Below are positions 38,577-51,876 of a stretch of DNA of 64,000 bases, piece by piece. Below the pieces are notes generated by a model. The model was given only the letters and a program-made list of their open reading frames with translations, had not been told where the DNA came from and searched no databases. Location: positions 1-64,000 of the forward strand of contig JACDED010000005.1 in the NCBI GenBank assembly GCA_013816615.1. Reading direction: 5' to 3'. The stretch is from Bacteroidota bacterium. Its GTDB lineage: Bacteria; Bacteroidota; Bacteroidia; B-17B0; Aurantibacillaceae. The number at the start of each line of letters is the position of its first letter. Position 1 is the stretch's first letter. A program made the position numbers and the translations under genes.

Positions 38577-40496
38577 CTATTTATTTATTATTACTTTTTT
38601 AGTGAATTCTTTATTGTTTGAATTTAATTTTATAAAGTAAACGCCGTTTGAAATGTTATTGAGATCAATTGTCTTATTGATAGTATCGATTTCTGTTTCG
38701 TAGATCATTTCACCAATTAAACTATACACTTTGATCTTTACAATTCCGTTTGTTGCAGCATCCAATTTTATCTCAAATCGTCCATTGTTTGGATTTGGAT
38801 AAACAGACCAATCTAAAATTTCGCCGGCATTATCAATTATACCAAGAGGGGTTGATGCTGGAGGTATAACATTTATATATATCATTTGCGCATTTTCAGA
38901 ACCCGAAGTTTTATAAACAAATTGGTTTAAACAACTTGTAGAATTTGCACCGCACGAAACGGTAACAGATAAGCAAATTGAATAGTTGCCCGATGCTGAA
39001 TATGTGTGTGAAGTATAAAGTGTATTAGTAGTGCTGTTATCGCCCCAATTCCACGTTGCTGCAACAACATTCCAAGGTGATACAGGCGTTGCATTCCAAA
39101 CTAAAGTAGTTGTAGTTGGTGCCATTGTAAAATTTGAATTTGCAATACACGGAATACCTGTTACGTTTATAGATTGAATAACCGAGTCTATACATGAACT
39201 ACCAGAAGCAGACATGTATACATTGTATGCGCCAGAACTGGCATAAGTATGTGAAGGTGATTGGCTGACACTTGTAAAACCATCACCAAAATCCCAAAAA
39301 TAATTAGTGTTGGTGCTTGTGCCTGTAGAAGCGTTTGCAAAATTAACATTACCACCTGAACTAACCGTATGTGTATAATTAGCGATCAAACCACAAGGCA
39401 CTGTGCTAACGTTAATTATTTTTGTGATGGATGAAAAACAAGTTAAAGAGTTATTGTAAACTGTTAAAGTTGCCGAATACGCTCCATTCATTGTGTAAGT
39501 ATGTGATGTTGGATTTCCGTTAGCTGTTGTTGCGTCTCCGAATTGCCAATAAAAAATACTGGCCGCTATAGTACCTGTTGATGTACTGGTGAAAGTAACT
39601 TGTCCGTTTGCGCCTTGTGCAAAGTTATAATTAGCGTTTAAAGTACAGGGCGAAAAAGAATTTACAACTATAGGAATAATTAGAGATGAATCTGCACACA
39701 TGATGCTATAGTTATTGTTGGCATATAAGTACACAAAATAAGTGCCGTTTGCCGAATACGTATGAGATGTTGATGGCCCACTGCCACTAGGGCTGGAGTC
39801 TCCAAAACTCCACAAATAAGTGGTGCTCGGGACTGTGCCGGTTGATGTGCTGTTAAAACTTACAAGGCCGTTTGCGCCCTGTGTAAAAGAAAAACTTGTA
39901 TTAAGATTACAGGTGGCATTAGAAACGCTTATTACTTGTGTGGCCGTGCTAATACATGTTGTTAAACTACTCATTGCTTTTAATATAACTGTGTATGTTC
40001 CGTTTCCATAAACATGATTGGTAACGTCTCCGTAATTTGTATTATTATCCCCTAGGGTCCAGGTATAAGTGGTTCCCGAATCGGTTCCAGTAGAAACACT
40101 GTTAAAACTAACAAGGCCGTTTGCTCCTAGTGTGTAGTTAAAGCCTGCTGCTAATGTACAGGGATATGTGCTTACCATAACCGGTATGATTACAGAATCT
40201 ACACAATTTGCAGTAAAATTATTATTGGCAATGAGCACAACATTATAATATCCGTTTGTTGCATAAGTATGAGAGCTTATTGGCCCTGTACCGTAAGTTG
40301 CATCACCGTAGTTCCAGGTATAAGTGGTGCCGGCAACCGTATTGGTTGATGTGCTGCTAAAATTAACCTGGCCACTGACACCTTGCGTATATGAAAAAGC
40401 TGCGTTAAGCCCACAAATCTGGGCACTGCTCTTTGCGGCAATTAGTATAAAACAAAAGCCAAGCAATAAAGGAAGATATGTTGTAATTTTTTTCAT
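38577..40496 (-). CDS. PKD-repeat T9SS-secreted surface protein
   Basis: 639 aa starting at ATG 40494-40496 (MKKITTYLPLLLGFCFILIA signal; an ATG two codons earlier is also in frame). The body has about six ~85-residue PKD-like units, five with clear motifs such as TTYTWNYGDATYG, TTYLWSFGDSSPSG and NYFWDFGDGFTS, each starting with a Pro-Cys pair (CTLAAGFNY, CNLNTSFSF, CTLNANYNF) and carrying a second cysteine, suggesting one disulfide per unit. The end is a type A T9SS sorting domain (DWSVYPNPNNGRFEIKL ... ISNGVYFIKLNSNN). It is the last gene of the sigma-factor operon, 46 bases after the PKD lipoprotein. Probably a surface-exposed repeat protein. Confidence 0.87.
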   Translation of the reverse strand: MKKITTYLPLLLGFCFILIAAKSSAQICGLNAAFSYTQGVSGQVNFSSTSTNTVAGTTYTWNYGDATYGTGPISSHTYATNGYYNVVLIANNNFTANCVDSVIIPVMVSTYPCTLAAGFNYTLGANGLVSFNSVSTGTDSGTTYTWTLGDNNTNYGDVTNHVYGNGTYTVILKAMSSLTTCISTATQVISVSNATCNLNTSFSFTQGANGLVSFNSTSTGTVPSTTYLWSFGDSSPSGSGPSTSHTYSANGTYFVYLYANNNYSIMCADSSLIIPIVVNSFSPCTLNANYNFAQGANGQVTFTSTSTGTIAASIFYWQFGDATTANGNPTSHTYTMNGAYSATLTVYNNSLTCFSSITKIINVSTVPCGLIANYTHTVSSGGNVNFANASTGTSTNTNYFWDFGDGFTSVSQSPSHTYASSGAYNVYMSASGSSCIDSVIQSINVTGIPCIANSNFTMAPTTTTLVWNATPVSPWNVVAATWNWGDNSTTNTLYTSHTYSASGNYSICLSVTVSCGANSTSCLNQFVYKTSGSENAQMIYINVIPPASTPLGIIDNAGEILDWSVYPNPNNGRFEIKLDAATNGIVKIKVYSLIGEMIYETEIDTINKTIDLNNISNGVYFIKLNSNNKEFTKKVIINK

Positions 40497-40542
40497 GTGC
40501 ATTTATGTTTTTTTCTTTCAAAGATTTGATGTCCTTTTTAAA

Positions 40543-41664
40543 TCATTTATATGCCACGCAAATTATTGCATCGGCATTATTAATTAAAATAGCAGTAGCG
40601 CCATTATATATAGTACAGGTAAATTTTACGTGAAGTTTTTTTGTTAATTGATTATTATCATTGTTCTTAAAATTCTCTACTGATAAAATATTAAAGTAAC
40701 TGTTAGCAGGTTGTTGCGCGTTTTTTGAGGTGTAGAATGTACCGTTACCATCTATCCAATTGACAACAACATTTGAAAGACCTAAAGCATTTGGCGTTTG
40801 CGAAACAGCATTTACAGAATAGTTCGCAGCGCATGAGGAAATATCGTTTTGTGTAACTGTATTGTATTTAGCATACGCGGTGTCATTATTGCCATCAATT
40901 ACTCTTAAAGTTACCGGGTATGCGCCTGTGTATTGATAAGCATGCGTGGGATTTGCTAACGTTGAAGTTGGTGTGCCGTCACCAAAATTCCATAAATACT
41001 GATAGGGGCCGATGCCTTGCGAATTTATAGAAGAAAAATTGATCGAAGTTCCCATGGTTGAATCTGCGTCAATCCTGGTTCTGAATTTGTAATTAACAGT
41101 GCCAATGTTTTGAACGTTATAAATACTACTTTCACACGAATTTAAACCGGTTACTGTTAAGCTGATATTATATTTTCCGCTTTTTTTATAAATATGATTT
41201 GGATTAATTGATGTTGATGTTACGCCATCACCAAAATTCCAAAGGTAAGAGGCCGCGGGTTTATTGTAACTGGATTGAAATTGTGCAAAATAAAATGAAG
41301 CTGCGTTACTAGCTAGGTAATTATAATTTCCGGGAATTAAAGACGAATCAATTTGTGTGATTGAATTTGTAGCCGAAACTTTAAAATCATTGATTTGGAT
41401 CTGTAAACTATTAGGGCAGTTTGTGCAATTGGTTTGTTTTAAACCTGCTATAAATCCATAAACATTATTCGAATCTTGCTGAAAAGAAGAATACATATAA
41501 TAATTATTAACTCCAGCTTCAATTGATGTTGGTACTCCGTTCATAGACATTGTACAATTAAAAACCGGACTACCTTCAGTGGTAGATGGAGGGTATTCTT
41601 TTTTTCCGCATGAGATGCAAGCGATAAGCAGCAATACAATTATACAGTTATAGAAATTCTTCAT
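40543..41664 (-). CDS. PKD-domain lipoprotein
   Basis: 373 aa. The start MKNFYNCIIVLLLIACISC is a lipoprotein signal with Cys19 in ACISC. Residues ~35-130 look like a beta domain of unknown family, followed by two PKD domains (YLWNFGDGVTSTSINPNHIY near 140 and YLWNFGDGTPTSTLANPTHAY near 225) and a C-terminal ~100-residue domain. It lies 3 bases after the trans-envelope gene and so is in the same transcript as the ECF sigma factor. There is no T9SS sorting domain, so it is anchored by lipid, perhaps in the outer membrane, next to the secreted PKD protein downstream. Confidence 0.82.
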   Translation of the reverse strand: MKNFYNCIIVLLLIACISCGKKEYPPSTTEGSPVFNCTMSMNGVPTSIEAGVNNYYMYSSFQQDSNNVYGFIAGLKQTNCTNCPNSLQIQINDFKVSATNSITQIDSSLIPGNYNYLASNAASFYFAQFQSSYNKPAASYLWNFGDGVTSTSINPNHIYKKSGKYNISLTVTGLNSCESSIYNVQNIGTVNYKFRTRIDADSTMGTSINFSSINSQGIGPYQYLWNFGDGTPTSTLANPTHAYQYTGAYPVTLRVIDGNNDTAYAKYNTVTQNDISSCAANYSVNAVSQTPNALGLSNVVVNWIDGNGTFYTSKNAQQPANSYFNILSVENFKNNDNNQLTKKLHVKFTCTIYNGATAILINNADAIICVAYK

Positions 41665-41667
41665 TTG

Positions 41668-43092
41668 TTACTTTTTAAATAAATTATATATTAATGTTAG
41701 CTTTAAACCCATATTTCTTTCAAAAACATTTGAGTTAAAAAATTTATTGTCTTTTACATCTGTTAAACCATAAATGAATTCAGTATTTAACCAAAGATCT
41801 TTACCAAGTTTTCTTCTGTAAAATAGTGAAGCCTGGGAATCTAATGTTTTAAAGCCTTGCGTATATCCTGATGTTTTTAAAACAGTTGCATTACCTTTTT
41901 TATCAGCAGTTTGCGCGTATAATTCTACATTACTATTCACATTAAATAAGTAAGCTGCATTATAACCAATACCAATAATATTTTTTTCTTTAAACGTATA
42001 ACCAAATTTAATTGGCGCTAAAAGATAATGCATGGTTGTTGGTGTAAATACCATTACATCCGTTTCTTCACCAAAATTGTAGCGTGTTGTTGTAACAACA
42101 TGATTGCTGTATGAAAGATTGCGAACCATTGTATAATGAATACCCATTGAAAAAATAAACGGTGTATTTAATGTGTTTGAATAATTTAAACCAACAATTG
42201 GATTAACGCCATTCGCATCACGCTTGCCCGGGTTATTCCAGCCAAATAAATAACTGGTTCCTGCTTCAAAAGAAACAAAATGCGCGGGCTCTTTCAATTT
42301 TAATGTTGAATCTCTTTTAACTGGTTCGGCTACAGCAACCACACTTTTTACAGGATCAACACTAATTGTGTTTGTTTCAGGAACATATGTTACAACTTCT
42401 TCCGCTTTGGCTTCATTAACGGTAGTTTTAGTTTCTGCAACTGTATTACTTTCAACAACTGTTGGAAGAACAATTGTATTTACTTGTGTTTGTTTCTCGG
42501 GTTCGTTATTTTGTTTTACCGGTACGGTATTTTCTTTTTCTTGGTTAGGCGTAAAAACAACTGCATTTTTTATAATCGTAGTTTTTTGCTTTTTAGATCG
42601 GATATTTATTGTTGATGTGTTTTTTGTTTCTTCCGCTTGATTTTTTACACTGTTTTGAGAAATTGATTTTTCTGTATTAGTTGTTTCTATTTTCTCGTTT
42701 AATACAGCAAGTTCCGTTTTTTCGTTTACAGGTTTTGTTTCTGTATTTGTTTTTTCTTCTGTTACATAAATATTCTCGTTTTGTTTTTGATAAGCGGTTA
42801 TTTCGTTATTAGAGGCTTGTTTTGTTTCAGGTAATTGCGTGTTTGTATTTGTAGCTGCAGTTTCTTTTACGGCAGTAGTATGATCTGAAAATTTATAAAT
42901 TACAAAACTGCCAATCGTTACAAATAATAAAATACCACTTACCAAAAAATATGGAAAAGGGCGTTTTTTCTTTTCTTCGCGCGTAGCATCTAGCATGCCG
43001 CTGGCTTTTAGCCAATTAACTTCATCAAACTGAAATTCTTTTGCATTCAGTTTTTCTTTTAACGCGTCTTTAAATTCCTTTTCACTACTCAT
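41668..43092 (-). CDS. Trans-envelope protein: cytoplasmic N-terminus, one TM, long linker, outer-membrane-barrel-like C-terminus (putative anti-sigma, Dma-like)
   Basis: 474 aa with no signal peptide. Residues 1-45 are a charged cytosolic segment (KEFKDALKEKLNAKEFQFDE, then NWLKASGMLD), 47-67 a transmembrane helix (FPYFLVSGILLFVTIGSF), ~70-265 a low-complexity Thr/Glu/Lys/Asn/Val linker long enough to cross the periplasm, and ~270-474 an outer-membrane-barrel pattern (FVSFEAGTSYLFGWN, YNAAYLFNVNSNVEL, ending in an aromatic strand MGLKLTLIYNLF). It starts 2 bases after an ECF sigma gene. The layout matches the dual membrane-spanning anti-sigma factors (Dma) described in Bacteroides thetaiotaomicron. 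Sigma binding by the first 45 residues is inferred. It has no known catalytic motif. Confidence 0.75.
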   Translation of the reverse strand: MSSEKEFKDALKEKLNAKEFQFDEVNWLKASGMLDATREEKKKRPFPYFLVSGILLFVTIGSFVIYKFSDHTTAVKETAATNTNTQLPETKQASNNEITAYQKQNENIYVTEEKTNTETKPVNEKTELAVLNEKIETTNTEKSISQNSVKNQAEETKNTSTINIRSKKQKTTIIKNAVVFTPNQEKENTVPVKQNNEPEKQTQVNTIVLPTVVESNTVAETKTTVNEAKAEEVVTYVPETNTISVDPVKSVVAVAEPVKRDSTLKLKEPAHFVSFEAGTSYLFGWNNPGKRDANGVNPIVGLNYSNTLNTPFIFSMGIHYTMVRNLSYSNHVVTTTRYNFGEETDVMVFTPTTMHYLLAPIKFGYTFKEKNIIGIGYNAAYLFNVNSNVELYAQTADKKGNATVLKTSGYTQGFKTLDSQASLFYRRKLGKDLWLNTEFIYGLTDVKDNKFFNSNVFERNMGLKLTLIYNLFKK

Positions 43093-43094
43093 GA

Positions 43095-43685
43095 TTATAA
43101 AATATTTAATTCTTGTAGGTCATTTTTTTTTATAAGTTCTTTTAATTTTTCTTTGGCGGAGTTTAAATGCCATTTTGATGTGCCTTCGCTAATATCCAAC
43201 ATATTACCTATTTCCTTGTGCTTGTATCCGTCAACAAAATAAAGATTAAATACCTGCCGCGTAGCGGCAGGTAATTGGGCAATAAATGAATATATTTGCT
43301 CTGTATCAATTTTTGAGATCACAGCATTTACATCAGCATATTTATCCGTTTCGTAATAATCTTCCACATACAATACGTTATCGTAATGTATTTTTTCTTT
43401 TTTAAATTCGTTTATCAGCGTGTTGATCATTACTCTTCTTATCCAGGCTTTAAAAGGAACTTCTATTTTATATTTATCAAGATTAGTGATAATCCTTAAA
43501 AAACCAATATTTAAAACTTCTTTTGCCCTGTCTTCATTTTTTGTATAACGGATACATATACTCATCAAATAACTGTACGTAAGTTTATACAATTCGTATT
43601 CAGCCCTACGGTCACGATCAATGCACTCATTAATCAGTTTTTGCTGAATATCCATGTAATTACTTATAAGTTCTCTATTAACCAT
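43095..43685 (-). CDS. ECF-type RNA polymerase sigma factor
   Basis: About 196 aa. Sigma region 2 is CIDRDRRAEYELYKLTYSYL then ICIRYTKNEDRAKEVLNIGF, and region 4 is LPAATRQVFNLYFVDGYKHK then EIGNMLDISEGTSKWHLNSA, the DNA-binding helix-turn-helix with SEGT. The -10-contact core FKAWIRRVMINTLINEF is clear. I use ATG 43685; ATG 43655 (MDIQQKLINEC) is equally plausible, and homologues usually begin at that point. The sigma factor is 2 bases from the trans-envelope gene and should be co-regulated and held inactive by it. It likely controls this operon and other surface genes, which is inference. Confidence 0.88.
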   Translation of the reverse strand: MVNRELISNYMDIQQKLINECIDRDRRAEYELYKLTYSYLMSICIRYTKNEDRAKEVLNIGFLRIITNLDKYKIEVPFKAWIRRVMINTLINEFKKEKIHYDNVLYVEDYYETDKYADVNAVISKIDTEQIYSFIAQLPAATRQVFNLYFVDGYKHKEIGNMLDISEGTSKWHLNSAKEKLKELIKKNDLQELNIL

Positions 43686-43765
43686 TACAAAATAAAGGTA
43701 CAAAAGGTTGGGTGAACACCCGCTTTTAATAATATATAACTACTTGATTTTTAAGTAGACACAAA

Positions 43766-43793
43766 AAAAGGCGAGGTTTTAGCCTCGCCTTTT
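43766..43793 (-). terminator. Intrinsic terminator of the adhesin-PorP-OmpA operon
   Basis: AAAAGGCGAGG and CCTCGCCTTTT form a perfect 11-bp stem with a 6-base loop (43777-43782), 13 bases past the OmpA-family stop codon. Confidence 0.88.
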
Positions 43794-43806
43794 ATTAGGG
43801 TAAACC

Positions 43807-46014
43807 CTAAGGTTTTATTTTTACGATCTTAAATTCCGTTCTACGGTTTTGAGCGTGTTGCTCTTCACTACAAGGCACAACAACGGTACCTTCGCATTTA
43901 CAATCGTTAATTAGTTTGGATTCGCCATAACCTTTTCCATAAATACGGGCACCGCTAACACCTTTTGACATTACGTAACCTGCAGATGCTTTAGCACGTT
44001 TGTCAGATAAAGCTAAATTACCGGCTGCTCCTCCTCTACAATCAGAATGTGAGCTTAACTCAATAGTAATACTTGGGTTTTGCGTTAATAACTGAACGAT
44101 CTTATCTAACTCAATTTTTGCATCAGGTCTTACAGTTGCTTTTCCAAGATCAAAATAAATTGGTTGCAAGTCAACAACCTTTCCAATATCCGCGCCCAGT
44201 TTTATTTTATACATTTTAGTATTTAAATAATCATGTAATAAAACATAGCCTTCTTTTTTAATGGTAATGTCAACCGGTACTATCTTGGTTAAGTAACCAT
44301 CTTTTTCTAATTTAATAATATATGAAAGATCATCGCCTACTTTTTTATCTTTATAAATATGACGGAAATCACCTTCTTTATCCGTTGTAAAAGTTAAAAA
44401 ATCATTTTTATTAAATCCATCAGTGATCGTAATTTTTACACCTTCAATTGGCGAAAGATCATCAGCATCAGCAATTAAGCCTAATAAACCAATAATTTTT
44501 TTCTCAACTAATACTTCTTTTTTGTCGTTTGCTAATAAGGTTAATTCTGCTTCTTTTATTACGCCAACACTTTCTTTATACCCTTGCTTATTTGCTTTGA
44601 TCTTATAATCCTTACCAGGAATAACATTCAGCTTGATCTCCCCTTTACTGTCGGATTTTGCTTCGTAAACAGGCTTACCTGTTTCATCAATTAAAACTAC
44701 AGTTGCATCGGCAATAATTTCTTTAGATAAATTATCCTTTACAATTAAATTAATAGCGCTGCTAATAATCGGGCGCTTTGCAACAAAACTATAAATATCG
44801 TCCTTGGTAGTTCCCCTGTTAGAAGTTAAATATCCGGTTGTTGTTGTTTTTGCGTAAAAACCAAAATCATCAAATTGTGAATTTACAGGGTAGCCTAAAT
44901 TTTGTGCTTCAAAATATGAATCTTCTGCAGGCACAGTATAAAAAACATCTAAGCCGCCGATTCCAATCTTTCCATCACTGGAATAAAATAAAATTTCATC
45001 TTCAAATAATTGAGGAAACATTTCTCTTCCTTCTGAATTTACAGATTGTCCAAGATTTTCAGGTTTTGTCCAACTGTTATTTTCAAATCTTGTCACCCAA
45101 ACATCGGTTAAGCCTAAAGTGCCGGGCATATCCGAAACAAAATATAATGTTTTTCCATCGCTACTAATTGCCGGGTGTCCGCATGAATAATCATCGCTAT
45201 TATAAGAAAACTCCATCCAATCGCCCCAATTTTCACCTTCTTTTTTTCTGCTGAAAATTTTAAGGTTCACGCGGCCATCTTTACTTTTTTGATATTTATT
45301 TTTAATAAAATTGTTACGTGTAATAAATTGTACCATTCCGTCTTTTGTAAAACAGATTGGTCCTTCGTGCACTTTAGTTTTTAATCCTTCCTTTACCGCG
45401 TGCTCATTTTTTACATCTGTACCTTCAATATATCCTTTGTAAACATCTAAATAATATGAATCGTCCCAACCGTATTTACGGCCGGTAACTGATGTATTTC
45501 TTCTTGAAGACAGAAAGTACATTTCATTATTTACAACGTAAGGACAAAAATCATTATCATCTGAATTGATAGATAATTTTTTTAATGAATAGTTACTCGA
45601 ATCTTTTTTTAATTCTTCAACTACCAGTTTTTTTCTATTGATATTATCACGTATCAGTTTGTATTGATTATCGTTTATCTTAGAAAACACTTCAGAAGCT
45701 TTAGGATAATTTGAATTGTATTTTAAAACCTGGTAGTAGTTATAAAGATCCTGATCGGTCATACCGGTATTAGTATACGCTTTATCATAATACACTTGTG
45801 CTTTACGATAATCGCCCATGTTTAAATTACTTTCGCCTGCGCGAACATAATATTTAATTTTTGGGTGTTTGCTGCGCGAAAGCTCTTCATACATTTCTGA
45901 TGCAGAAACGAATTCAAGATCTGCAAAACGCTTATCGGCAATTTTTTCTTTAACCGATTGCGCCTTTGTTACCAATGTTGCAAAAATTAAAAGAGATGCA
46001 ATTATATTTTTCAT
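43807..46014 (-). CDS. PorE-like OmpA-family protein with TPR, PD40 and carboxypeptidase-regulatory-like domains
   Basis: 735 aa, signal MKNIIASLLIFATLVTKAQS. Residues ~20-130 are TPR-like (DYRKAQVYYDKAYTNTG, YPKASEVFSKI), ~150-420 a PD40/WD40 beta propeller (YFLSSRRNTS, LYFVSDMPGTLGLTDVW, YSSDGKIGIGGLDVFYT), ~430-590 CarboxypepD_reg-like beta domains, and ~605-735 the OmpA peptidoglycan-binding domain (YFDLGKATVRPDAKIELDKI, ELSSHSDCRGGAAGN, NRRTEFKIVK). This is the domain order of the T9SS component PorE and related OmpA proteins. It would attach the PorP/adhesin apparatus to the cell wall, which is inference. It lies 33 bases after the PorP/SprF gene. Confidence 0.87.
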   Translation of the reverse strand: MKNIIASLLIFATLVTKAQSVKEKIADKRFADLEFVSASEMYEELSRSKHPKIKYYVRAGESNLNMGDYRKAQVYYDKAYTNTGMTDQDLYNYYQVLKYNSNYPKASEVFSKINDNQYKLIRDNINRKKLVVEELKKDSSNYSLKKLSINSDDNDFCPYVVNNEMYFLSSRRNTSVTGRKYGWDDSYYLDVYKGYIEGTDVKNEHAVKEGLKTKVHEGPICFTKDGMVQFITRNNFIKNKYQKSKDGRVNLKIFSRKKEGENWGDWMEFSYNSDDYSCGHPAISSDGKTLYFVSDMPGTLGLTDVWVTRFENNSWTKPENLGQSVNSEGREMFPQLFEDEILFYSSDGKIGIGGLDVFYTVPAEDSYFEAQNLGYPVNSQFDDFGFYAKTTTTGYLTSNRGTTKDDIYSFVAKRPIISSAINLIVKDNLSKEIIADATVVLIDETGKPVYEAKSDSKGEIKLNVIPGKDYKIKANKQGYKESVGVIKEAELTLLANDKKEVLVEKKIIGLLGLIADADDLSPIEGVKITITDGFNKNDFLTFTTDKEGDFRHIYKDKKVGDDLSYIIKLEKDGYLTKIVPVDITIKKEGYVLLHDYLNTKMYKIKLGADIGKVVDLQPIYFDLGKATVRPDAKIELDKIVQLLTQNPSITIELSSHSDCRGGAAGNLALSDKRAKASAGYVMSKGVSGARIYGKGYGESKLINDCKCEGTVVVPCSEEQHAQNRRTEFKIVKIKP

Positions 46015-46047
46015 TTTATTAAGTTCTTTATTTATGCTTTTTATTCT

Positions 46048-46977
46048 TTAGAAATAACGTGGTGATTTAAGTGCTTTTTGATTTGAAAGAAAATCAAAGC
46101 CAATGATTACTTCGTGCGTGCTTGGACTATATTTTCCCATATTATTAATTGAATAATCGTAAGCGTATCCAACACGTAATTGTTTTGTAAAGTTGTAAGC
46201 AATGTTTGCGCCTGCAGCAGAACCATGACGGTACATTACGCCGAACCACATCTTCTCATTAAACAAAGCAGATAAGTTAGCGTCGATAGATACTGGTGCA
46301 TTTGGCGTGTACTTAAGTGCGCAGCCGGGTTTAAGATCCCAAAGGCTGTTTAATTTAAATACATAACCCGAAATAAAATAATAATGTAATACTTGTTTTG
46401 AAGCAGAGAAGTTTGCATCGTTACTTAATTTATTAGGGATAATTTTTGGAGCCGTTAAGCCTACAAAAAAACGTTTACCATAATAATAAACACCTGCACC
46501 TGTATTAAATGCATTGGTATTAAAGTTTGGATTATTTACAACTAATGGATCTGTTTCATCATTAACAGCTAAGCCATGCAAATTATTTCTGATAAGATCG
46601 GCTCCGGCACGAATACCAAAACACAAACGATCGTTACCCTTATTTAATTTAATGCGATAGGCAAAATCGGCAAACACTGCCGTTTTATTTGTTGGCCCAA
46701 TAATATCATTTACAACATTTATACCCACACCAATTGATTCGTTCATTAATGGTGTGTGCATAATAAAACTATTTGTTTTAGGTGCACCTTTCCATCCTGT
46801 CCATTGGCTACGCGCATCGAGCACAACGCTTAACGCATCGCGACTACCGGCATACGCAGGATTTAAGATAGAAGAATTGAACATATAAAAAGAGTTTTGA
46901 ACCTCTTGCTGCGCAGATAATGAAAGGCTTAAACACGCTGTTGCGATTAATACTGCTATTTTAGATTTATTGATCAT
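46048..46977 (-). CDS. PorP/SprF-family T9SS outer-membrane protein
   Basis: 309 aa, signal MINKSKIAVLIATACLSLSLSAQ. Family hallmarks: SFYMFNSSILNPAYAGSRDALSVVLDARSQWTGWKGAPKT, KTNSFIMHTPLMNESIGVG and YAYDYSINNMGKYSPSTHEVIIGF; these are shown in pieces and place it firmly in the PorP/SprF barrel family. In gliding Flavobacteria, SprF is needed for SprB secretion and attachment. Here it is directly after a giant CHU_C-type adhesin gene (18-base gap), the expected partner arrangement for secretion and anchoring of type B cargo. Confidence 0.93.
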   Translation of the reverse strand: MINKSKIAVLIATACLSLSLSAQQEVQNSFYMFNSSILNPAYAGSRDALSVVLDARSQWTGWKGAPKTNSFIMHTPLMNESIGVGINVVNDIIGPTNKTAVFADFAYRIKLNKGNDRLCFGIRAGADLIRNNLHGLAVNDETDPLVVNNPNFNTNAFNTGAGVYYYGKRFFVGLTAPKIIPNKLSNDANFSASKQVLHYYFISGYVFKLNSLWDLKPGCALKYTPNAPVSIDANLSALFNEKMWFGVMYRHGSAAGANIAYNFTKQLRVGYAYDYSINNMGKYSPSTHEVIIGFDFLSNQKALKSPRYF

Positions 46978-46995
46978 TTTATTCTCCTCTAACTA

Positions 46996-49900
46996 TTAAT
47001 ATTGTAATTGTATATAGCCCCTTATAATATCACTGGCTTCACCCGTACCCAGATCTAAGATATAGAAGTAAGTACTTGTTGGTAATTTGCTTGAACCTGT
47101 TTTACCCGCTGTGTTTGGTGAGCCATCCCAATCATTTTTATAAGGCTTGGCATTATAAACAGGATTACCCCAACGGTTAAATATCTGTAAGCTGTTGTTT
47201 GGATAAGAATCTAATCCCGATATCTCGAACACATCGTTTTTTCCATCACCGTTTGGTGTGAATATTTCAGGGATGATACCAATTGTGTTTTTAACGATGA
47301 TCACAATATCTGCAGTTGATGTACATGCACCATTCATCGATACTAATGTAACTGTGTAAGTTCCTGCAGGGAATGTATTGCTTGGATCTGTTTGTGTGGA
47401 TGTGCCGTTACCAAAATTCCAGGTGTATGAAATTGCTCCTGTACTTTGATTGGTAAAATTAATAGTTAATGGTGCAACACCAGTTATAGTATTTTGAGTA
47501 AATGCAGCAAGTACTGATGTACTGTTGACGCTTACTGTTTGTGTTGCACTGCAACCTGTAATATTATCGGTAACCATTACCGTATAAACACCTGCTGATG
47601 CTACTTCAGGGCTGGCAGTGTTAGAACCGTTAGTAATAGCCGGGCCATTCCAAATATAGCTTACGTTGCTGTTTGTAGTGGTTGCGTTTAAGGTTGTGGT
47701 ACCTGCTCCTCCACATGGTAAGTTACCCGATGCGCTTGCATTTAAAGTTGGGATGATAGTGTTATTGGCAACGGCTACTGTTTGCGAAGCTGAACACCCT
47801 GAGTTACCATCAGTAACTGTTACAGTATATGTGCCCGCATTGGATGTAGTAATGCCCGGTGTGGTTGCGCCTGTGTTCCAGCTATAAGTTACTGCTCCTG
47901 ATGAATTAGCTGTTAATGTTACTGTGCCTGAGTTGGGTTGACAACTGATACCAATGCTTGAAGTGCTAGCAACGTTTAGTGTTGGTGGCACATTAGTGCC
48001 TACTACTGGTACTGTAATAGAAGTGCTGCTACAACCTGTTAATGTATTTGTAACTGTTAAGCTGTAGGAGCCGTTTTGATTTACCTGTACATTTGCATTG
48101 TTTGAGCTGCCTACAATACCCGGGCCTGACCAGGTATAGGTTAAGTTAGCTGCCGGTGTAAATGTAGGGGCAATGGTTACGATCGTATTTGTACACGATA
48201 TCGTTTGTGCGGTGCCTGTTCCTGCTACAACGCTTGGCGCAATAGTAGCATTGGCAACAGAAACGGTTGAAGTAGATAAACAACCGTTAGTGGCTTCAAC
48301 AATTACAGTATAAAGACCTGCTGCTGTAAAAGTAGCAGTAGCGCTGTTTGTTGGTCCCGAAATACCTGATGCAGGACTCCAGCTATAACTTTGTATTGTA
48401 ATTGTAGATGTTAAACCTACCGTTACATTTGGCGAGCTGGTTAAACAGGTAATACTCGGTGTTGAATTACTAACCGAAAAAGTTGGTGCGTTTGTGTTTG
48501 GTAATACTGTTACTGTTGCTGCGGCAGACGAGCAACCGTTAGTGCCTGTTGCAATTAAAGAGAAGGTTCCAATACTAGAACTTGTTACTTGCGCTGTCGC
48601 ACTTGTAGCACCGCTTAAAATAGAGCCTCCTGCCGGAGCGATCCACGAATAAGTTGCTGCACCTGTTGCTGATCCGTTAACAAAAGCGGTTTGTGCAGGG
48701 CATGCTAAAGTAATGTTGTTAGGTGTAATATTTACTGCTGTTGGTGCAAGAGTATTGGCTACAACATTTATCGTTTGTGTTCCTGTACAACCATTGGCTG
48801 TATTAGTTACTGTAACTACATAATTTGTATTGGCTGTTGGGTTTACTACAACAGAAGATGTTGTTGCAGTTGTACTCCAGCTATATGTAAATGAAGATGA
48901 TGTTGGTGTAGGCGCCGTTGAAATAGTTGCAGTAGTGTTATTACAATTTACTGTGTTTGTTGCAACTGCATTTGGTGTAATAGCTGTGTTGTTAGCTGCA
49001 AGATTGAAAGACGCTGTTGAATTACAATTGTTACTGGTGTTTGTTACTGTTAGGTTGTAAACACCTGCTAAGCTACCGGTGATCGCTGATGTGTTAGATG
49101 CACCTACAATGCCGGGGCCTGTCCATGCATATGTTACGCCTGTTGATGGGTTAGAGGTAACTGTAGCGGATTGTGTAGTGTTGATACACGTTAGTGTGCC
49201 GTTGGCAGATGATACTGCTAAGGTTGGTTGATTCACTGAAGGGCTAACTGTAAATACTAATGAAGAGGTACAGCCTGTTACAGGATGTGTTGAGTTTAAA
49301 GTATAGGTTGTTGCGCCGTTAACTGCAACGGTAGAGTTATTTACCCCACTTGAAAAGCCTCCGCTGGATGCCCATGTATAGGTACTTCCTGCCGGTGTAG
49401 CTGTTCCTGATAAAATAACGATACTGCTTGTACCGCAACCCGATGATGCTGTCTGACTTCCTATGGCCGATAATGCCGGTGTTGCTAAGTTAGATGTAAT
49501 GTTAACCGTAGCAGCTGTGGTAGATGTACATCCGTTACTTGTGCTGGTAACCGCTAACGAGTATACGCCAGCTGCAGTTACGTTGACGTTAGCATTATTC
49601 GCTGATCCTGATATTGCTGTGCCCGTCCATGTATATGATACCGTCGATGCCGGGCCTCCATTTATAGTTACTGTTGGTGTGGTACACGTAATTACTGGTG
49701 TTGAATTTATGACTGCTATTGGCTTTACTGTTTGTGTGGTTACTGCTACTACATTTGTATTGGTGCAGCCGTTAACTGCATTGGTAACATTTAAGGTATA
49801 GGTTCCCCCGCCACTGCCTGACGCGCTTGCTGTGTTACCTCCACTACTGATCGATGAGCCCGATGGCGCTACCCATGTATAGGTTACTCCCGAAGTAGAC

Positions 49901-51876
49901 GAACTTAAGTTAACCGCATTACTTGCACAGGTAACAGTTCCTGTAGATGTAGTATTTGGTACACCTTGCACAGTATTTACATTGGCTGCAATAGTTCCGA
50001 GTTGAAAACAACCATTTGTTGTATTATAAACACTTACTGAATAAGTTCCGGAGTTAGATCCTGTAGCAGCAGCGGAGTTTGCACCCGCTGTAATTGCTGC
50101 ACCACTTGGCGCTGTCCATGTATAATTCTGACCGGCTTGATTAGTTGTTGTAAGATTAATTATTTTGTTGATACACGTTACACTTCCTGTTGTAGCAGGA
50201 AAAATAGCAATAGAAGTATTTGGCGCAGCAATAGCAATTGTAGTTCCACTTGAACAACCATTTATGGTTGAAGTCACGCCCAAACTATAAGTGCCTCCGG
50301 CATTAATTAAAGGAGATGCTGTTGAGCCTCCCGAAACAACTCCGGGCCCTGACCATGTATAAGTAACACCGCTTCCGGGTGTACAACTTAAGTTCATTGA
50401 AAGGATAGCGCAATTTAAAACTGTTGGACTTGAAACAGATGGTGTTGGTGATACAGTATTTACAGGCACGCTAACGGTTGTCACATTGGTTGAAGTACAA
50501 CCTGCACCCGAAGTAACCGTTAAAGAAAAAGGGCCTGGACCGTTTACAACAGGGTTAGCTGTTGTTCCTCCGCTTACAATTCCCGTTCCGCTCCATACAT
50601 AAGTACCACCACCTGAACCTCCAAGAGATTGGGTTGGATTAGCGCAGGTTATAGATGCGGGTGTTGTTCCTGCGTTAGCAGTGGGTAAAGCATTTAATGT
50701 TAATTGACGCGTATAACTTTGCACAGCGCACCCGTTTGGTTGAGTAATAGTAACAGTGTAGATCGTATTTCCTACTACTGTTGGGGTTGCTGTAATACTT
50801 AATGATGTTGCAGAACCACCAATTGCTCCTGCCGTACTGGCAGTCCATGAATAGGTTGAACCGGCGACGGAATTACTTGTGGTTAAAACAGTTGTCTGAT
50901 TCTGACATATTGAGGCGGAGCCCGCATTTAATGTAGCTACCTGCACACCTGTCATTGGTGTAACCGTGTAATCACAATAGTTTCCAGCATATCCGTCTAT
51001 CATAATATAATAATCGGTGCCAGGTGTAAGAGCAGTTGATGCGCCCAGCGTAAATGAAGTAGCTGATGTGCTCTGGCTGATACAACTTGATATGGGAGAA
51101 AAAGTATTGCAGTTGGTACTTGCTAATAATAACATTTGTATCCCACTACTTGTTGAGGCACAGTTGCCTACATTAACTGAAAAGGTTGGAGAAGGACTAT
51201 TGGCTGTAAATACCAACCAACTATTGTTTTCTATACTTCCACAAAATGTATTATTTGTAGTAAATGTATTTGGGAAGTTATTTACTTCAGCATTGGTTGC
51301 CGCAATATTTTCGTGATCTGCAGTAAACCAGCCCCCTGTGTTTCCACAATATGGATCTGTATCGCATATCCTTGTTGTACTTGCACAATCATCACCCGCA
51401 GGTAAATTACCTGCACAGCCTACCGGCGGACAACCTACAATTGCAGAATAACCATCGCCAACAGCGTTATCAAAATTTGTTGTAAATCGAATAGTTATAA
51501 TTCCTGTTGTAGAAGTAACAGCCGATCCTAATGTAGTATATGTATTTGTGAATGTTGCTAATAAAGGGCCGCCGGTACCAGTACCCTGATAAACCCTTAC
51601 AAAATCCCCTGTATTCAAATCCAAATAAGTAAAATTTATCCTGATAGGCATACCCGGTGTACCACTTTGAAATGTATTAAAGTGATTATCTCCCTGGCAA
51701 TAATAAATAACTGTACAAAATGGTGAATCATAACAACAAAGATCATTTTGTATAAAACCTTTACAGGTTGTAAAAACACTTCCACCCGGAGGTGTGAGAA
51801 TGTATGATTGTGATTTTAAATTGTTTACTGTAAACAGTAAAATAAAAAAAGAGATAAAATATAATTTCAGTTTCAT
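46996..51876 (-). CDS. Giant SprB-like surface adhesin with CUB, jelly-roll, Ig-like repeats, PKD and gliding-motility C-terminal domain
   Basis: 1626 aa. Signal MKLKLYFISFFILLFTVNNLKSQ; residues ~30-155 a CUB-like domain (GDFVRVYQGTGTGG, DGYSAIVGCPP); ~156-315 a cysteine-rich jelly-roll domain; then about fourteen ~75-residue Ig-like repeats, each with a TYTWSGPGIVG-type strand, a paired cysteine and a GxYxLTVTN strand; a final PKD (SYTWNFGNGTSTQTD); and the ~95-residue gliding-motility-associated CHU_C domain (PEIFTPNGDGKNDVFEISG, LQIFNRWGNPVYNA). That terminal domain is the type B T9SS signal that works with SprF-type proteins. Direct repeats at the DNA level make assembly collapse possible. 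It follows a small secreted gene by 20 bases. Confidence 0.92.
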   Translation of the reverse strand: MKLKLYFISFFILLFTVNNLKSQSYILTPPGGSVFTTCKGFIQNDLCCYDSPFCTVIYYCQGDNHFNTFQSGTPGMPIRINFTYLDLNTGDFVRVYQGTGTGGPLLATFTNTYTTLGSAVTSTTGIITIRFTTNFDNAVGDGYSAIVGCPPVGCAGNLPAGDDCASTTRICDTDPYCGNTGGWFTADHENIAATNAEVNNFPNTFTTNNTFCGSIENNSWLVFTANSPSPTFSVNVGNCASTSSGIQMLLLASTNCNTFSPISSCISQSTSATSFTLGASTALTPGTDYYIMIDGYAGNYCDYTVTPMTGVQVATLNAGSASICQNQTTVLTTSNSVAGSTYSWTASTAGAIGGSATSLSITATPTVVGNTIYTVTITQPNGCAVQSYTRQLTLNALPTANAGTTPASITCANPTQSLGGSGGGTYVWSGTGIVSGGTTANPVVNGPGPFSLTVTSGAGCTSTNVTTVSVPVNTVSPTPSVSSPTVLNCAILSMNLSCTPGSGVTYTWSGPGVVSGGSTASPLINAGGTYSLGVTSTINGCSSGTTIAIAAPNTSIAIFPATTGSVTCINKIINLTTTNQAGQNYTWTAPSGAAITAGANSAAATGSNSGTYSVSVYNTTNGCFQLGTIAANVNTVQGVPNTTSTGTVTCASNAVNLSSSTSGVTYTWVAPSGSSISSGGNTASASGSGGGTYTLNVTNAVNGCTNTNVVAVTTQTVKPIAVINSTPVITCTTPTVTINGGPASTVSYTWTGTAISGSANNANVNVTAAGVYSLAVTSTSNGCTSTTAATVNITSNLATPALSAIGSQTASSGCGTSSIVILSGTATPAGSTYTWASSGGFSSGVNNSTVAVNGATTYTLNSTHPVTGCTSSLVFTVSPSVNQPTLAVSSANGTLTCINTTQSATVTSNPSTGVTYAWTGPGIVGASNTSAITGSLAGVYNLTVTNTSNNCNSTASFNLAANNTAITPNAVATNTVNCNNTTATISTAPTPTSSSFTYSWSTTATTSSVVVNPTANTNYVVTVTNTANGCTGTQTINVVANTLAPTAVNITPNNITLACPAQTAFVNGSATGAATYSWIAPAGGSILSGATSATAQVTSSSIGTFSLIATGTNGCSSAAATVTVLPNTNAPTFSVSNSTPSITCLTSSPNVTVGLTSTITIQSYSWSPASGISGPTNSATATFTAAGLYTVIVEATNGCLSTSTVSVANATIAPSVVAGTGTAQTISCTNTIVTIAPTFTPAANLTYTWSGPGIVGSSNNANVQVNQNGSYSLTVTNTLTGCSSTSITVPVVGTNVPPTLNVASTSSIGISCQPNSGTVTLTANSSGAVTYSWNTGATTPGITTSNAGTYTVTVTDGNSGCSASQTVAVANNTIIPTLNASASGNLPCGGAGTTTLNATTTNSNVSYIWNGPAITNGSNTASPEVASAGVYTVMVTDNITGCSATQTVSVNSTSVLAAFTQNTITGVAPLTINFTNQSTGAISYTWNFGNGTSTQTDPSNTFPAGTYTVTLVSMNGACTSTADIVIIVKNTIGIIPEIFTPNGDGKNDVFEISGLDSYPNNSLQIFNRWGNPVYNAKPYKNDWDGSPNTAGKTGSSKLPTSTYFYILDLGTGEASDIIRGYIQLQY

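Follow-up and report, generated by a model that had tools for sequence, protein, structure and literature searches.

A probable Dma-type trans-envelope anti-sigma factor with a PKD lipoprotein partner and a predicted regulon of T9SS surface proteins in uncultured Bacteroidia

We analyzed a 64,000-nucleotide stretch of DNA (hereafter the window; positions 1 to 64,000 of contig JACDED010000005.1, GenBank assembly GCA_013816615.1) from a Bacteroidota metagenome-assembled genome (MAG) of 4.68 Mb in 246 contigs, whose relatives are likewise uncultured Bacteroidia. Within it, a block of four genes (38577-43685) encodes an extracytoplasmic function (ECF) sigma factor, a 474-aa membrane protein, a lipoprotein with PKD domains and a PKD protein destined for the type IX secretion system (T9SS). 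Our results, all of them computational, indicate that the 474-aa protein is probably a trans-envelope anti-sigma factor of the dual membrane-spanning (Dma) type which, together with the lipoprotein as its partner, forms an autoregulated system controlling T9SS surface proteins. An earlier note on this DNA had described four minus-strand genes spaced by 2, 3 and 46 bases. Open reading frames (ORFs) and Pfam matches confirmed that layout and the genes are real; the 2-nt gap between sigma and Dma and the 3-nt gap between Dma and lipoprotein are correct, and the last gap is 46 nt only when counted to the second ATG of the cargo gene (40 nt to the first). The block cannot be ascribed to chance, since its synteny is kept in five related MAG loci and a second, paralogous sigma-Dma-lipoprotein cassette is found elsewhere in the same genome.

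Known Dma proteins consist of an N-terminal anti-sigma domain, a transmembrane (TM) helix, a disordered tether and a C-terminal barrel, and their genes lie beside that of an ECF sigma factor (PMC13088901). The 474-aa protein shares both the layout and the adjacency with Dma1/Das1 and Dma2/Das2 of Bacteroides thetaiotaomicron. An AF2 model built on a six-row alignment placed two helices in front of the TM helix, left the following linker unstructured and formed eight strands from residue 271 on. When residues 268-474 were compared with known structures by Foldseek and VIA-align, the matches were NspA (Z 12.8), OmpA (12.6), OprF (12.4) and OmpW (12.2), with the NspA/OmpA-type fold aligned over 155 residues at an rmsd of 3.3. 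Among 46 relatives, 16 matched OMP_b-brl models by themselves at E ≤ 0.01, 14 of these being matches to OMP_b-brl_2, though the two counts may overlap. The single TM segment, the low-complexity linker (rich in T, E, V, K and N) and the barrel in residues 270-474 that the earlier note had proposed were thus all recovered, and the Dma-type architecture with an adjacent sigma gene stands. Conservation follows the same division: across the 46 relatives the mean top-residue frequency is 0.51 for the head, 0.48 for the barrel and 0.21 for the linker; one tryptophan of the head (W27) and one proline of the barrel (P360) are invariant. The head and TM helix (residues 1-71) gave a profile match (E 6.7e-6, probability 84.7) to NigD-linked Dma proteins from two Bacteroides-like genomes (L247 and L248), in which NigD is encoded beside the sigma/barrel pair; judging by this neighbor, those proteins are presumably Dma1. 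By analogy with Dma1 and Dma2, the 474-aa protein would act as an anti-sigma factor.

With a profile of the anti-sigma factor we collected 46 loci; having been gathered by homology, these are related to one another, and their counts cannot be read as independent events. Wherever the contig extends far enough (44 loci), the Dma gene is preceded by a sigma gene, and in 46 of 46 loci it is followed by a gene for a PKD lipoprotein belonging to the same family. Of 39 additional loci, taken from other families of the class, all have the sigma gene, 30 the lipoprotein and 18 a linked cargo with PKD or C-terminal sorting domain (CTD). Among the 46 relatives, looking for sigma/TM-linker-barrel pairs and their downstream genes, as the earlier note had suggested, returned a constant trio. 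The C-terminal domain of the lipoprotein occurs in 18 copies in eight genomes, each of them within 1.3 kb of a Dma gene. Because of this and the 46 linked loci, we consider the lipoprotein a dedicated partner of this Dma subfamily, and from the obligate linkage we infer that it contacts the barrel. It had previously been counted as one more surface cargo, but the comparison shows an invariant partner of the anti-sigma factor, most copies of which are rich in basic residues after the lipid-bearing cysteine: at least two K/R are found among the six following residues in 41 of 50 scored copies, at least two acidic residues in 3 of 50. Surface lipoproteins of other Bacteroidetes carry an acidic export signal at this place. 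The basic stretch and the scarcity of acidic signals suggest a periplasm-facing lipoprotein. A structure model of the lipoprotein was unusable (pLDDT 48.5).

The sigma factor scored above the cut-off for the NCBIfam model sigma70-ECF and below it for Sig70_bacteroi1. Ahead of its gene lies the only strong match that the promoter matrix has in the window. It scores 33.6 bits, as against 9.1 for the runner-up, and belongs to a conserved consensus, CCCAACY-N16-YGTA. The start at 43685 adopted in the earlier note overlaps the -10 element of this promoter, and relatives conserve a start (MDIQ..) at 43655; since the annotated start falls in the -10 region, we take 43655 as the true one. In the 230 nt around the sigma start, 37 of 45 loci have CAAC-N18-GTA, while alternative spacings in the range 10-25 occur in 0 to 4 loci each. 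In a wider set, 74 of 84 loci have a looser form of the motif at the same fixed spacing; outside the genus the figure is 33 of 42. We rejected a generic ECF promoter, as the motif precedes no more than 2 of the 27 other sigma genes in this genome, and also a second promoter class at spacing N19, a peak which arises from the second GT of CGTGT. An ECF sigma factor that regulates itself is expected to carry such a promoter of fixed spacing, and autoregulation is predicted here on that ground. From autoregulation and co-occurrence together, we infer that the sigma factor of the block reads CCCAACY-N16-YGTA.

A tree of the sigma factors splits the genus into two groups that differ both in promoter and in gene content. 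In the group of the window the base before the GTA is T, and 18 of its 19 loci have a linked T9SS PKD cargo; in the remaining one (L091), truncated by the contig end, a PKD ORF is visible. Its sister group, of 22 loci, has C before the GTA and no linked T9SS cargo (0/22). The two types can be told apart by residues 92-101 of the sigma factor, near region 2.4, with N or D at 92, K or R at 95 and H or E at 100. The source genome holds one cassette of each (on contigs C200 and C173). In four loci of the sister clade (L090, L092, L095 and L096) the promoter is also found 3' of the lipoprotein gene, ahead of unrelated small secreted or membrane proteins, and the same arrangement occurs in the source genome (G000:C173:4587-4613). 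A single origin of the cargo linkage, hinted at by the genus tree, was dropped because other families also have linked PKD cargo.

The regulon was predicted by pattern searches of genomes. The T9SS nature of the cargo encoded in the block is indicated by its sorting domain (PF18962, E 2.2e-15; TIGR04183 above cut-off) and a signal-like stretch at its N-terminus, judged by eye. A T9SS cargo lies downstream of the trio in 20 of 46 loci, and in 24 of 39 loci the sigma-type promoter stands ahead of the linked T9SS PKD gene, for example with 27.2 bits in L083, 21.5 bits before the second cargo gene of L084 and 21.5 bits in L015. Sites are also found before unlinked PKD-T9SS genes: in the source genome before a gene of 464 aa (L125 on C209, 24.0 bits), and in other genomes before L143 and L147 (G007), L152 (G006) and L146 (G019). 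The full pattern occurs 17 times in the source genome as against 3 times for its reversed form. In the related genomes G006, G007 and G019 the T-type pattern gave 18 matches, 8 intragenic and 10 intergenic; all 10 intergenic sites precede either sigma genes (3) or PKD genes (7). With about 115 PKD_4 domains per genome, PKD genes are common yet make up a small part of all genes. The coupling of T9SS PKD cargo to the sigma factor proposed earlier thus gains a promoter before linked and unlinked genes alike, at the level of a predicted regulon.

Two further sites of the source genome deserve separate mention. One (L116, G000:C21:9478-9504; 22.9 bits) precedes a truncated PKD gene at a contig end, where an ORF of 49 aa fuses the two ends of a PKD cargo protein, whose repeats were probably collapsed in the assembly or lost. 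Another, CCCAACG-N16-CGTAATA (L019, G000:C152), stands before a gene for a 288-aa RpoD-like sigma factor, one of two such genes, so that a primary-sigma paralogue might be within the regulon.

Taken together, these observations are best accommodated by the following scheme. The cytosolic head of the 474-aa protein would hold the ECF sigma factor at the inner membrane, and the same polypeptide would cross the periplasm through its disordered linker and end as an OmpA-like barrel in the outer membrane (OM), where the PKD lipoprotein may sit with it as co-sensor or gate. A shift in the state of the barrel and lipoprotein, for which the surface, lipopolysaccharide (LPS), envelope assembly and the T9SS are candidate causes, would release the sigma factor. 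Once free, this would read its promoter, raise expression of its own operon and induce several PKD surface proteins secreted by the T9SS, including the one encoded next door. Several observations weigh against this scheme. The AF2 model is weak overall (mean pLDDT 41.5, with strand blocks of the barrel at 70-80). Nine of the 39 Dma loci outside the genus have no lipoprotein (three of them beside a contig end), and the lipoprotein is therefore dispensable for the Dma-like class as a whole. The cargo gene of the block has no promoter site of its own in the matrix search of the window; we rejected it as a separately promoted gene, and it is presumably transcribed by read-through from the sigma promoter, its counterparts in relatives having both promoters. 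The predicted regulon of the source genome also includes intergenic sites before non-PKD genes. Lastly, the residues that distinguish T-type from C-type sigma factors are clade markers as well, so that shared ancestry confounds any link between them and the -10 base.

The same genes could belong to a trans-envelope anti-sigma factor answering general OM or LPS stress, a role that has been put forward for the barrel anti-sigma factor of Phocaeicola vulgatus, the PKD-T9SS genes being a surface-remodelling stress regulon with no role in sensing. We regard this as a credible alternative, if a somewhat less than even one. Barrel anti-sigma factors encoded after a sigma gene are known from P. vulgatus (M0N98_03760) and from the EcfO pair of B. 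fragilis, and BcpT, a toxin acting on the envelope, elicits a response of the pair in P. vulgatus (PMC9308784); Dma1 and Dma2, for their part, influence vesiculation (PMC13088901). OmpA-like barrels lacking TonB features also suggest envelope sensing. However, the regulon predicted here is narrow and enriched in one kind of protein, and its promoter sites showed no genes for LPS or envelope repair. The P. vulgatus and B. fragilis pairs resemble ours in having a sigma factor followed by a large anti-sigma factor predicted to span the periplasm with an OM barrel, but their regulon is tied to O-antigen length and toxin protection, and no PKD lipoprotein has been described for them.

Less likely is a system that measures T9SS output, in which exported PKD proteins would reset the switch by binding to the barrel or to the lipoprotein. 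PKD domains are common to lipoprotein and cargo, sigma-linked cargo distinguishes the clade of the window from its sister clade, and in Porphyromonas gingivalis, where the PorXY-SigP system controls T9SS genes through an ECF sigma factor, the T9SS CTD protein PorA affects signalling (PMC7712824). Against this, the abundance of PKD matches in each genome makes a shared PKD domain weak evidence, most lipoprotein copies lack the acidic export signal and may face the periplasm, and some loci are without any linked cargo. Its fullest form, in which the barrel anti-sigma factor and its dedicated lipoprotein sense T9SS-delivered surface PKD proteins and set their transcription by a dedicated ECF promoter, would be a closed secretion-feedback loop without a two-component system, and we put it forward as a tentative and rather doubtful proposal. 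It is most improbable that the 474-aa protein is an ordinary OM barrel with a long N-terminal tether merely lying beside a sigma gene controlled by other means: the head matches no Pfam anti-sigma family and its activity is assigned by analogy, but sigma adjacency holds in every testable locus across families, the gaps are short and translationally coupled, and the conserved head has an invariant tryptophan and resembles that of NigD-linked Dma proteins.

Returning to the Dma-type regulator with its lipoprotein partner, we compared it with described systems. In Dma1 and Dma2 the third gene encodes NigD or a DUF4943 protein instead of a PKD lipoprotein, the regulon comprises nigD1 or polysaccharide utilization loci (PULs) instead of the T9SS PKD proteins predicted here, and most of the barrel is not recognizably similar in sequence. 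PorXY-SigP/PorA shares the link between ECF sigma factor and T9SS; it is a two-component system with no barrel anti-sigma factor and controls the machinery, not PKD cargo. The SM6 ECF-type promoters of Flavobacterium psychrophilum likewise have a CGT box in the -10 element, and their regulon includes T9SS components and one ECF/anti-sigma pair (PMC9723704); their targets are T9SS machinery, those predicted here PKD cargo. As to the suggestion that the coupling may be undescribed, sigma-T9SS coupling as such was already known (PMC7712824, PMC9723704), and the literature searched contained no paper joining T9SS, PKD and anti-sigma, nor a Dma-type anti-sigma factor with T9SS cargo. The dedicated PKD lipoprotein, the defined promoter and the predicted T9SS PKD regulon of a Dma-type regulator appear to be new.

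Upstream of the sigma gene, an intrinsic terminator marks the block off as a transcription unit separate from an OmpA/PorE-like gene. This gene, a PorP/SprF gene and a gene for a giant CHU_C T9SS type B protein (together 43807-51876, minus strand) are syntenic with the block in relatives from the group of the window, despite the intervening terminator. Three more sigma/TM-linker-barrel-like pairs occur in the source genome (L020 on G000:C8, L021 on G000:C142 and L023 on G000:C204), none with a PKD lipoprotein or a CCCAAC promoter; L021 is followed by a gene for a 504-aa lipoprotein. L042 (G000:C218) has a divergent PorP-like gene, and a sigma gene there is followed by a gene for a 482-aa one-TM protein, whose C-terminal part looks by eye like a formylglycine-enzyme/SUMF1-type domain rather than a barrel.

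Table 1. Coordinates of the features in and next to the four-gene block (positions of the window).
Feature	Position	Strand	Basis or remark
T9SS type A cargo, 641 aa, six PKD domains, C-terminal sorting domain at residues 567-639	38577..40502	-	PKD_4 x6, Por_Secre_tail
PKD lipoprotein, 373 aa, lipid-bearing Cys19, family-specific N/C domain enclosing two PKD domains	40543..41664	-	PKD_4 x2; constant partner
Dma-like trans-envelope anti-sigma factor (putative), 474 aa	41668..43092	-	Layout and adjacency; family of 46
Eight-stranded outer-membrane barrel (predicted), residues 269-474	41671..42288	-	Foldseek/VIA matches; OMP_b-brl_2 in relatives
Variable low-complexity periplasmic linker, residues 70-268	42289..42885	-	Unstructured in model; lowest conservation
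Single inner-membrane TM helix, residues 46-69	42886..42957	-	Helix in model; all relatives have a TM window
Cytosolic head with invariant W27, residues 1-45, predicted to bind the sigma factor	42958..43092	-	Conservation; head/TM profile match
ECF sigma factor, 186 aa	43095..43655	-	Pfam Sigma70_r2 and r4_2; start corrected from 43685
ECF-type promoter, CCCAACC-N16-TGTA	43686..43712	-	Ahead of sigma gene; 33.6 bits
Intrinsic terminator hairpin	43763..43795	-	Fold -17.4 kcal/mol, z -5.8, then T-run; between OmpA/PorE-like gene and sigma gene

In a system of this kind, the choice of surface proteins to be made could depend directly on the condition of the cell surface. Dma regulators were described a few years ago, for the most part from gut Bacteroides, and no signals or direct promoters have been described for them there. 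The widespread environmental branch reported here supplies a defined promoter, a partner protein that is constant and, as predicted regulon, a small number of secreted surface proteins. What the Dma barrel senses, whether the lipoprotein gates it and how the expression of T9SS cargo is matched to the state of the surface can now be tested.

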